Made by a program: the position numbers and the translations under genes | Shown here: piece by piece, positions 56,847 through 64,000 of the stretch | How positions within the stretch are numbered: the first letter of the stretch is position 1 | How the letters are laid out: each line of letters begins with the position of its first letter | The notes under the pieces: model-generated | The model's input: only the letters and a program-made list of their open reading frames with translations | The model's database searches: none | Told to the model about the DNA's origin: nothing | DNA from: a virus | Reading direction: 5' to 3' (one strand) | Length of the DNA: 64,000 nt | IMG/VR virus record: IMGVR_UViG_3300028840_002431 | Span: 352,540 to 416,539 of that record

Positions 56847-57749
56847 TTATGGAGGGCCTTCTAACAAATTCACGAACTTGTCGATGCAACGCCCCATGGA
56901 ATAGCGGGTCTCCACCCACTCTCTGCACCAAGCCGGGTCTTTAGGCTTTATGGCCCCCAACTCCTCAAAGGTGTTCCAGAGGCACTCTCTGGGCCATATG
57001 GTGTCGGCCCCTGGCCACGCATGGACGAGAGGAGTCAAGCCCATTGCCATAGCTTCCGCGACCCCCATGCCGAAGCTCTCAGTCACGCTCGTGGATATGA
57101 TAAAACGCTTACCCCTCAAGAACTCCTCGGTCCGCACCCACCCGAAATACCTAACATTAGGCAGTTCCAGATCTCGAAAATATAGCTCTATCTCCTCGTC
57201 CTGGAATGTCCCTCCGACATGAAATTGCCGGTCCGCTAACGAGGCCATTACCGCCCGCAAGAGGGCTGGACCCTTTTTCTTGTTCAGATAGCCGACGTAG
57301 GCGACGGTGCTGTCGTCCATAGACGCCTCGTCCTGAAGCTGAAACTTCGTGAGATCAACACCGTTCGGGATAAGATGTAATCTCACCTCAGGGCACAACT
57401 TGGCCATCTTGGCCCCCACGATCTCCTCGAATTTGGGAGACACCACGATCAGATCCGACACGTTAGGCCAAAAAACCCTCTTTAAATACTGATCCTGAGC
57501 CTCGTAACGGTGCAACCGGACAATGAGTCTTGGTTTTTTAGGTAGCTCCCCTAGCCTCTTGGACAAAACGACGGCGTTCTCGTCGCAGAAATCAACGAAT
57601 ATAACGTCCGGGCACAAAGTCTTGACATACTTCCACATATATTCGTTTTGGACGTGCTGTTCCCGATAGACGCTGTGGCCCTGTAGCCTCTCTGCGAGAT
57701 AAGGAGCCAGAGAGAAATTGGGTGTGATTTCGACAACGAGAAGCTTCAT
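56847..57749 (-). CDS. GT4-family glycosyltransferase
   Basis: 300 aa. The ATG at 57749 overlaps the upstream TGA (ATGA); a longer frame from 57824 is less likely. Two Rossmann-like halves are present, with YVGYLNKKKGP in the nucleotide-sugar region and TESFGMGVAEAMAMG, the E-x7-E signature of GT4. It would transfer a sugar from a nucleotide sugar. It closes a cassette with two methyltransferases, a sulfotransferase and a GT2 enzyme, so all may act on one glycan. Substrate unknown. Confidence 0.8.
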   Translation of the reverse strand: MKLLVVEITPNFSLAPYLAERLQGHSVYREQHVQNEYMWKYVKTLCPDVIFVDFCDENAVVLSKRLGELPKKPRLIVRLHRYEAQDQYLKRVFWPNVSDLIVVSPKFEEIVGAKMAKLCPEVRLHLIPNGVDLTKFQLQDEASMDDSTVAYVGYLNKKKGPALLRAVMASLADRQFHVGGTFQDEEIELYFRDLELPNVRYFGWVRTEEFLRGKRFIISTSVTESFGMGVAEAMAMGLTPLVHAWPGADTIWPRECLWNTFEELGAIKPKDPAWCREWVETRYSMGRCIDKFVNLLEGPP

Positions 57750-58246
57750 CGCCACCCCAAAATATGCTTCCGGCCTTCCCTGCCAGAGACTACAGAGGCG
57801 TGTTTGAAGTCCTCTTGGGTCCACCTGGAAATGTGAGCTTCATGCTTGTTTCCGTGGCAAGCGCCCTGCCCGCTCCAGTACGCCGGGGTCGAGACAATGT
57901 AATGTTTCTTCACACCCTCCAACAATTTCTTACCGTCTTCTCGACTCAGATGCTCGATAATATCGACGAGCAAGATCAGATCATACCCCTCGAACGTGGG
58001 CAGAAGTTCCATGACATTCTGGTAGAAAACACGCCGGTAGACGCAGTCATGGACCGGGGATTTGTAGTTTTCAAAAACCTCAACCCCATCCACGATCGGC
58101 GTGAACCCCTTCCAGTATTTTAAATACTCAACACACAGGACACCCCACTTACCGTACCCGGCCCCCACATCCAAAATGGTCCGGGGACACATCTCCATCA
58201 CCTTGTAGACAATGTCCGATATCACTTCCGGCCGACAACTAGGCAT
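57746..58246 (-). CDS. SAM-dependent methyltransferase
   Basis: 166 aa, ATG start. SAM-binding motif ILDVGAGYGKWG near residue 24 and an acidic loop LILLVDIIEHLSREDG near residue 90 mark a class I methyltransferase. It is shorter than usual and lacks a clear substrate domain. Neighbouring glycosyltransferases suggest methylation of a sugar. Confidence 0.75.
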   Translation of the reverse strand: MPSCRPEVISDIVYKVMEMCPRTILDVGAGYGKWGVLCVEYLKYWKGFTPIVDGVEVFENYKSPVHDCVYRRVFYQNVMELLPTFEGYDLILLVDIIEHLSREDGKKLLEGVKKHYIVSTPAYWSGQGACHGNKHEAHISRWTQEDFKHASVVSGREGRKHILGWR

Positions 58247-58247
58247 C

Positions 58248-62057: not shown

Positions 62058-62644
62058 CAGATCCTCTTCATCAACGAAACACTAGCCCTGCGAATACAAG
62101 CCGCGCCTTGCTTCCCCTGAGCTTTGAACTGTAACTTGATATGTGGTGTGTCGCCTGTGTTAAAATCGATGAACGCTTCCCCGCTGCAATAACGCCATCG
62201 ATTTTTGATCCAATTATCACAACAGTACTCGATTCCATCAACTTCAATTCGGGTCTCAACTCTTGTGGCACTACTATTTGACGTTTTTACTTCATAACTC
62301 CATGCGACTCGATAAGCGCCATCGATTAAGGGATCGAGAGTTGCGTCTATTTTATCCCGGTATTCTGTAGTAGTGCTTATACTCTCCGCTTCATCCGTAA
62401 CAGTCTGAGGGGTATCAGAAACATCCGTACCTTGATGCGCCGCTACAAGGCCGTCCAGTATAGTTTGATCACCACCGCTAAGGGCGTCGTCGAACCAAAT
62501 GTCGCACACGTCCCCAGTGGTAAAGATATAGTACAAAGCAGTGACGATAGCAGAACCATCAATCTCTTTAGAGAGTAGGGTGCTGTTGACCTTCTGGTTC
62601 GGAAAGTCCTCACTAATACTATAAGTATACTTGGTAGCGGCCAT
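62057..62644 (-). CDS. Tail appendage protein, shared N-terminal domain with neighbour
   Basis: 195 aa, TAATG coupling with the fibre gene. The N-terminus (KYTYSISEDFPNQ, SAIVTALYYIFTTGD, LDG) matches that of the gene at 61035. The rest is a beta domain (AYRVAWSYEVKTSNSSATRV, DGIEYCCDNW) like a small lectin or jelly roll. It probably forms part of a receptor-binding complex. Not a recognised family. Confidence 0.6.
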   Translation of the reverse strand: MAATKYTYSISEDFPNQKVNSTLLSKEIDGSAIVTALYYIFTTGDVCDIWFDDALSGGDQTILDGLVAAHQGTDVSDTPQTVTDEAESISTTTEYRDKIDATLDPLIDGAYRVAWSYEVKTSNSSATRVETRIEVDGIEYCCDNWIKNRWRYCSGEAFIDFNTGDTPHIKLQFKAQGKQGAACIRRASVSLMKRI

Positions 62645-64000
62645 TAGACATCAACCTCGTGAACCAAGATGGAACAATGCTCGTAGGCCACAGTCACCGG
62701 ACGGATTGATCCTGTGTCAGACTCTACCAACCATTGAACCTTTATCGTTCTACTCCCCGACGCGAGTCCCGTTGCCTTATAAACAAGAGCGCCAGTATTC
62801 CCTTCGGCGTTCTTGCCTTGTAACCCAAAACCGCGTTTAGCGGAACCGTCAATGACCAACTGGAACCGCATGAATCTGTCATTGTTGTCAATGGACCCGC
62901 ACACCGACACGAATATATCTAGATCTGATCCCGCGCTGGCTTTGGTATACGCAAGTGAGAGTAAATCGGTAAAAGTAGTCGAGGTTGTGGTTGTATCAGA
63001 GGTAATCTCGGTGAAGCCGGTCTTTGTCAAACCCCCTGACGGTCCAGTCGGACCAGTGGCCCCAACGACACCTTCCAGCCTAGCGACCATGAAGGTGCTT
63101 TCTGGGATCATCACATTGCCGTCACCGTTCGCCTGTAGCTGAAGGGTCAGATACTCACCGGAAGATAACGAAACAGGGACGATATTCGACACAGCGTTAG
63201 TTTCGTCATCTTCGCTTATCTGCCTTACGCTTTGGGGAATAACAGTTGAGTCGTCTATCCGAACGCGAGCGTCAATAACTTCCTCACCAGCGTCAAAGTC
63301 TATGGATAACGAAAAGGCTACGAGATATACGCCGTCGGCTTTGACTTGAATTCTGTCTGTATTTACCGAGTCGTGTTCTAGAACCGAACTCTCATTCTCG
63401 AAGTCCGTCGTATCCCATGTAACGTCACCGTACGACCCGTTGGGTATAGAGAAGTTCGTAGTACGTCGAACCGACACGGCAGCAAGTGAGTCTATAACCC
63501 CTGGACCTGTCGGCCCTGTGGCTCCAGTCGGTCCCGTTGCTCCGGTAGGACCGGTGGGACCGGTTCCGCCCGTGGGACCTGTTGGACCAGGAGTAGTCGG
63601 TCCGGTTGCTCCGGTCGCTCCAGTGGCTCCGGTCGCTCCTGTTGCTCCTGTTGCTCCGGTGGCTCCGGTTGCACCTGTCGCTCCGGTCGCTCCGGTTGAT
63701 CCGGTTGCGCCTGTAGGTCCTGTCGATCCGGTGTTACCTGTGGGTCCTGTGTTGCCGGTGGCTCCTGTTGGTCCGGTTGCACCTGTCGCTCCGGTTGATC
63801 CAGTTGCTCCGGTGTTGCCAGTGGGACCGGTAGCGCCCGTGGCTCCGGTCGCTCCTGTTGCTCCGGTCGCTCCTGTTGCTCCGGTGGCTCCTGTTGCTCC
63901 GGTTGCACCTGTCGCTCCGGTTGATCCGGTTGCGCCTGTAGGTCCTGTCGATCCGGTGTTACCTGTGGGTCCTGTGTTGCCCGTGGCTCCGGTCGCTCCT
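62644..64000 (-). CDS. Collagen-like fibre with C-terminal C1q/jelly-roll domain, partial (N-terminus beyond window)
   Basis: Open frame of 451 codons continuing past the right edge on the minus strand. The G-x-T collagen-like repeats (63499-64000) run in frame into [16 protein letters not shown] and then a beta domain of about 275 residues ([31 protein letters not shown]) resembling C1q/TNF-like heads. A second short collagen stretch ([10 protein letters not shown]) lies within it. A GTG at 63477 might suggest a separate short gene but the frame stays open upstream. Presumably trimeric and receptor-binding. The Thr of the repeats are possible glycosylation sites. Confidence 0.8.
63499..64000 (-). 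repeat. Collagen-like G-x-T coding repeats
   Basis: About 55 triplets of 9 bases in the fibre gene, coding G-A-T, G-P-T, G-S-T and G-N-T with one interruption (P-T-T-P, around 63589-63600). A 71-base block (63686-63756) recurs exactly at 63911-63981, 225 bases away. Confidence 0.85.

Follow-up and report, generated by a model that had tools for sequence, protein, structure and literature searches.

The window, the whole 64,000-nucleotide stretch of DNA analysed here, is the final 64 kb of a 416,539-bp jumbo-phage record (G000:C1:352540-416539). It ends with a cassette of five genes, which encode a double glycosyltransferase (GT2-GT2-TPR), a sulfotransferase, two methyltransferases and a GT4 glycosyltransferase, and with the presumed acceptor, a collagen-like fibre encoded two genes upstream of the double glycosyltransferase. 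The same arrangement was found in L560, a 398 kb contig from the metagenome that also yielded L002, a near-identical twin of the window record. The features of the locus are as follows.

62644-64000, minus strand: collagen-like fibre, C-terminal part; open at the window edge, where it begins in (G-x-T)n
63064-63468, minus strand: globular domain of the fibre, then a short GxT spacer
62647-63030, minus strand: C-terminal domain of the fibre
62057-62644, minus strand: 195-aa structural-type protein, the first gene downstream of the fibre; kept in L560 (4703-5290)
61035-62057, minus strand: structural-type protein, 340 aa; kept in L560 (5290-6312)
59436-61016, minus strand: double glycosyltransferase, 526 aa, two GT2 domains and TPR (Pfam)
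60342-61016, minus strand: N-terminal GT2 domain of this protein, residues 1-225 (second stretch of PF00535; PF13641)
59436-60332, minus strand: GT2 plus TPR half of this protein, residues 229-526 (PF00535 and TPR)
58828-59439, minus strand: sulfotransferase, 203 aa (PF00685, 25.6 bits, cut-off 22)
58248-58835, minus strand: SAM-dependent methyltransferase MT1 (PF13649 and PF08241, over cut-off)
57746-58246, minus strand: SAM-dependent methyltransferase MT2 (weak PF13489, E=0.0014, below cut-off)
56847-57749, minus strand: GT4 glycosyltransferase (PF13692 and PF00534, over cut-off; L560 homologue at 10343-11242)

The fibre ORF matched Pfam Collagen (E=1.2e-20) and resumes at the opposite end of the record (G000:C1:1-5702, minus strand); its continuation is also carried by L002. 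Because the ORF resumes in both places, we conclude that the record was cut within the fibre repeats, probably from a circular or permuted genome. Pieced together from the two contigs, the fibre is about 2,388 aa long, with the repeat number uncertain at the join, where the two contigs differ, and has several collagen blocks alternating with globular domains. By eye the globular domains look C1q-like; the only Pfam match of the fibre was Collagen.

Threonine occupied the Y position of 388 of the 416 collagen triplets (93%), which confirmed the observation in an earlier note on this DNA that the fibre has Thr in nearly every third position as G-x-T. The proportion in the L560 fibre was also 93% (259/278 triplets), although the repeats differ. 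All four Thr codons were in use in the fibre, indicating selection at the protein level rather than a DNA repeat artefact. The two structural-type proteins encoded downstream of the fibre have a common N-terminal motif, and no Pfam or PHROG match was found for the 195-aa protein. These two genes separate the fibre from the cassette, which is thus close by the fibre rather than next to it, where the earlier note had placed it.

All the enzymes named in the earlier note were present by Pfam analysis, with the weak match of MT2 backed by its homology to methyltransferase domains fused to GT2-TPR proteins in three other contigs (L065, L099 and L096). The genes had also been described as overlapping, and neighbours in the cassette do overlap by 4-8 bp, save for one 1-bp gap. 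The GT4 ORF was listed from a GTG at 57824 (56847-57824); however, the ATG at 57749 is the more likely start, as judged by the fit to the L560 homologue and the resulting 4-bp overlap. The sulfotransferase has a 5'-PSB-like motif (KRSGTHLL) and a 3'-PB-like motif (YIVRHPVDTLMSYW), i.e., those of PAPS binding. It is 67% identical to its L560 counterpart, in which KRSGTHLL and YIVRHPVDTLMS are both kept save one V/I change. Its PDB sequence match was weak (E=0.05), and a model built from two sequences had a pLDDT of 38.5. Rhamnose or anthrose biosynthesis genes were not seen among the cassette genes. In searches of the whole genome, the only Pfam GT2 matches were the two domains of the double glycosyltransferase, and one further GT4 gene was found besides that of the cassette.

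The two halves of the double glycosyltransferase differed in how well they could be placed. The nearest PDB structure to the N-terminal GT2 domain was WrtF, a weak match; the domain has no close solved relative and modelled poorly beyond residue 96 (low confidence). We regard it as a probable extension enzyme. The GT2-TPR half scored 101.5 bits against PF00535 and 25.7 bits against TPR_19 (cut-off 25), and D315 and D317 of its DxD motif were nearly invariant in 43 relatives. Its best matches in a PDB sequence search were GmaR (E=6e-25), SunS (E=1e-15) and ThuS (E=1e-13). In the model of residues 230-526 the pLDDT exceeded 86 in every block except the last, and 90 in most of them; the model also showed helical repeats at residues 403-514 corresponding to the C-terminal TPR. 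A Foldseek search with this model returned SunS and ThuS at the top, followed by chondroitin polymerase. GmaR is the flagellin O-GlcNAc transferase of Listeria, and SunS and ThuS are peptide S-glycosyltransferases, so that all three modify polypeptides. Identity of the double glycosyltransferase with the SunS peptide S-glycosyltransferase itself was rejected: the corresponding NCBIfam family, TIGR04195, was the best match, but scored 67 bits against a cut-off of 350. By sequence and predicted fold, the GT2-TPR half belongs to the polypeptide glycosyltransferase group (SgtA/GmaR/SunS), a placement that predicts its activity, and it is probably the initiating enzyme. While GmaR, SunS and ThuS are the closest solved relatives by sequence, and SunS and ThuS also by fold, the window enzyme is expected to use a different acceptor.

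This placement bears on the possibility that the cassette acts on the LPS or capsule of the host, remodelling the cell surface so as to block superinfection or change receptors. GT4 enzymes, sulfotransferases and methyltransferases are also found in polysaccharide pathways, which would suit such a role, and host-surface modification is the usual view of phage glycosyltransferases in the literature (PMC7029224, PMC10202952). We nevertheless ranked this explanation low and consider it improbable: the GT2-TPR half is predicted to be of a polypeptide-modifying type, no membrane segment was found in any cassette protein, and generic phage GT2s were not near collagen genes in the comparison described below.

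Bacillus BclA of the exosporium is a G-x-T collagen that is glycosylated by the products of nearby genes with methylated sugars, and the window likewise encodes a G-x-T collagen with putative glycan enzymes nearby. To our knowledge, sulfation is not a feature of BclA. The analogy with BclA drawn in the earlier note was strengthened by the structural neighbours of the GT2-TPR half, which are polypeptide glycosyltransferases, and by the architecture of SgtA, the enzyme that modifies BclA3, a collagen-like glycoprotein of the C. difficile exosporium. SgtA has 358 aa, with a GT domain at 1-260 and four TPR at 262-358; it puts beta-O-GlcNAc on Thr of the GPT repeats of BclA3 collagen in vitro, and its gene is immediately upstream of bclA3 (PMC7157674). 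Both systems have an enzyme of GT plus C-terminal TPR architecture encoded near a collagen, with Thr the acceptor in the case of SgtA, a likeness of architecture and gene context. They differ in that the SgtA substrate is on a spore and the putative substrate here is on a phage virion, in the extra N-terminal GT2 that is fused in the window enzyme, and in the sulfotransferase, two methyltransferases and GT4 that the window operon adds, whose function here is predicted.

To determine how general the pairing of fibre and enzyme is, we began without regard to collagen, by a tblastn search of a phage collection with the window GT2-TPR protein, and read six loci. A collagen gene was present within 4 kb at three of the six, namely in Tunturi_5 (Thr at Y in 58/95 triplets), DSL-LC01 (23/33 and 24/37) and a faecal phage scaffold (10/27). 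In Tunturi_5, whose host is Tunturiibacter psychrotolerans X4BP1, the GT2-TPR is gp35 and the collagen fibre, 3.7 kb away, is gp29. Collagen was absent from the flanks read around the homologues in PaBG, Dickeya AD1 and ctKR88. In ctKR88 the GT2-TPR gene is near the major capsid gene and in AD1 it is among head genes, which would suit a cassette that glycosylates some other virion protein (capsid, tail tube or the products of the two structural genes), with the collagen nearby only incidentally, both being in the tail module. The two structural genes between fibre and cassette are consistent with this alternative, as is the virion glycosylation reported for actinobacteriophages (Freeman et al. 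2023, as cited in PMC13313380). There a phage-encoded glycosyltransferase and methyltransferase are suggested to decorate the virions, and the citing passage mentions neither a collagen acceptor nor a sulfotransferase.

The next comparison used 92 Thr-rich and 99 Thr-poor phage collagen contigs, gathered by DNA pattern. Plain Pfam GT2 domains did not distinguish the two sets, either within 3 kb of the collagen (13/92 Thr-rich versus 7/99 Thr-poor, p=0.09) or at the contig level (24/92 versus 19/99). The idea that any GT2 is a collagen companion was therefore rejected, as only the GT2-TPR class separated Thr-rich from Thr-poor collagens. At a threshold of at least 230 bits, chosen post hoc after the data had been seen, this class accompanied 14/92 Thr-rich and 0/99 Thr-poor collagens; at 200 bits or more there were two among the 99 Thr-poor contigs, both of them retrieved via the G-x-T pattern. 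The GT2-TPR gene was within about 3 kb of the Thr-rich collagen in 13 of the 14 cases, and at 10 kb in the other.

In the reverse direction, 28 of 75 distinct viral GT2-TPR loci, found with a profile built mostly from collagen-adjacent sequences, had a collagen gene within 3 kb (Thr-rich in 24), as did a single generic GT2 locus out of 120 (p=1e-12). As the generic control loci have shorter flanks, a per-kb correction was applied, and gave 6.8 versus 0.2 per 100 kb of flank. When collapsed at 50% identity, the counts were 14/42 GT2-TPR versus 0/84 generic clusters (p=4e-8). No collagen was seen near roughly half of the viral loci with GT2-TPR. Among bacterial GT2-TPR loci, collagen was within 8 kb in 23 of 80, mainly in Clostridia and Bacilli, and in those 23 it was mostly 0-200 bp from the GT2-TPR gene. 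The pairing of fibre and enzyme thus recurs in many unrelated phages but is not universal. The check proposed in the earlier note, whether relatives pair the two, showed the pairing within the lineage (L002 and L560) and, for fibre and GT2-TPR, far beyond it. The refuting case named there, a cassette lacking the collagen fibre, was not seen for the full cassette; a GT2-TPR gene by itself is found at some loci with no collagen nearby.

These distributions weigh against modification of another virion protein, which we judge to be unlikely: location in the tail module alone leaves the preference for Thr-rich over Thr-poor collagens, the collagen genes that neighbour the enzyme in Clostridia and Bacilli, and the 93% Thr at Y all unexplained. 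The data also bear on whether the Thr of G-x-T simply serves triple-helix chemistry or reflects repeat expansion, remaining unglycosylated beside enzymes that are unrelated cargo. In favour of this, Thr-rich phage collagens are frequent and only 14 of the 92 had a GT2-TPR gene in the piece of contig seen, and E. coli prophage collagens produced recombinantly keep their stability without glycosylation (PMC3368898). We nevertheless consider this explanation very improbable, given the synteny conserved in L560, the enrichment of GT2-TPR near collagen relative to generic GT2, and the diversity of the Thr codons.

Based on these findings, we think it likely that with this cassette the phage encodes an O-glycosylation pathway that acts on its own collagen-like fibre. 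In such a pathway, the GT2-TPR half would use its TPR to hold the freshly synthesised fibre in the host cytosol and would add the first sugar, O-GlcNAc by analogy with SgtA, to Thr at Y of G-x-T. Lengthening of the glycan would fall to GT4 and the N-terminal GT2 domain, and the two methyltransferases and the sulfotransferase would methylate and sulfate it. The glycan coat that the virion fibre would consequently bear would be hydrated and negatively charged, and may stabilise the triple helix and shield the fibre. Of these proposed steps, initiation on collagen Thr has good support from the SgtA analogy together with the co-occurrence; synteny and gene fusions support the view that the same glycan is elongated, methylated and sulfated. 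The acceptor in the window phage, the sugars, the order of the steps and the benefit (stability, shielding or charge) are what we infer from the whole, as are the particular steps given to the N-terminal GT2, the GT4 enzyme and the sulfotransferase.

Glycosyltransferases that phages encode beside their tail fibres are commonly taken to modify the host surface or DNA. The enzyme-fibre pair recurs with Thr-rich rather than Thr-poor collagens, which suggests that many such enzymes may instead coat the phage's own fibres, in the way that C. difficile does with the collagen of its spores. We found no earlier description of phage collagen glycosylation by a neighbouring glycosyltransferase, in a search outside which most subscription literature lay, and priority is not proven. 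The proposal offers a concrete and testable acceptor, the Thr of G-x-T, and a cultured relative, Tunturi_5, exists on a soil bacterium. If it is correct, phage virion chemistry would come to include sulfation, and this would affect the stability of the fibre as well as adhesion and recognition.

Sulfation itself appears to be a restricted addition. No relatives of the window sulfotransferase were found among 50,697 phage records, and in IMG/VR the only ones were in L002 and L560; among the GT2-TPR contigs tested, Pfam sulfotransferases otherwise occurred only in L277. This scarcity indicates that sulfation is rare and outside the general module. We would give about even chances to the broader view that a collagen fibre with a dedicated GT2-TPR enzyme is a widespread phage module, to which the window lineage and L277 added sulfotransferases, giving a sulfated, methylated virion coat resembling mucin or proteoglycan.

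The relatives also showed how the genes of the cassette can be joined. L560 keeps the order of fibre, two structural genes, GT2-GT2-TPR (551 aa, 69% identical to the window protein), sulfotransferase, MT1, MT2 and GT4, and its sulfotransferase carries a further methyltransferase as a fusion. A methyltransferase is fused to GT2-TPR in L065, L099, L096 (L266), L316 and L348, and also in L291 and L327. In L277, a 136 kb contig of an unrelated phage, the GT2-TPR protein is 40% identical to that of the window and is fused to a sulfotransferase-like domain. The Pfam score of this domain (19.8-21.5) was just below the cut-off, and over it when counted together with neighbours, and a P-loop motif is visible in its sequence. 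Several collagen genes surround this GT2-TPR gene in L277, as does another sulfotransferase, which is clear-cut. Thus, what are separate genes for GT2-TPR and sulfotransferase in the window phage, overlapping by 4 bp, form a single fused protein in L277.

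The break of the G000 record falls within the collagen repeats of the fibre gene (window 64000 / G000:C1:1), and this gene resumes at the opposite end of the record. The 416.5 kb genome is therefore probably circular or permuted, not linear. Elsewhere in G000 were the following features:

G000:C1:109964-110647 (L008 9964-10647), minus strand: second collagen-containing structural protein, small
G000:C1:198619-199533 (L012 18619-19533), plus strand: second sulfotransferase, clear (PF13469, 69 bits)
G000:C1:321295-323778 (L019 1295-3778), plus strand: 827-aa lipoprotein-like, Cys-rich repeat protein
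L019 4253-5446: GT4
L019 5447-6451: NAD-dependent epimerase-like gene
window 52842-53624: 260-aa protein of imperfect, SMxGDSSxGAGxxVxYDA-like repeats

The small collagen protein sits among tail-like genes, with no obvious glycosyltransferase in its immediate neighbourhood, and the 260-aa protein adjoins other small structural genes. The second sulfotransferase was without linkage to the fibre; an additional one was identified in the genome of the relative L560 (88694-89128). The GT4, the epimerase-like gene and methyltransferase-like genes form a second sugar-related cluster, distant from the fibre (locus L019, G000:C1:320001-329000). Judged by eye, the 827-aa protein is similar to Myxococcota surface lipoproteins, a resemblance that is a possible clue to the host.

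Collagen loci of other phages contained:

L259:2296-3537 (contig of L226): 414-aa ORF with GT2-like and methyltransferase-like parts joined (by eye)
L277:7073-12816: three large proteins with collagen, in whose head domains YATVGGG/NxAS-like repeats abound

The 414-aa ORF, which lies outside the GT2-TPR class, is close to a Thr-poor (Gln-rich) collagen. The three L277 proteins, which look like a family of decorated fibres, adjoin the GT2-TPR-sulfotransferase fusion.
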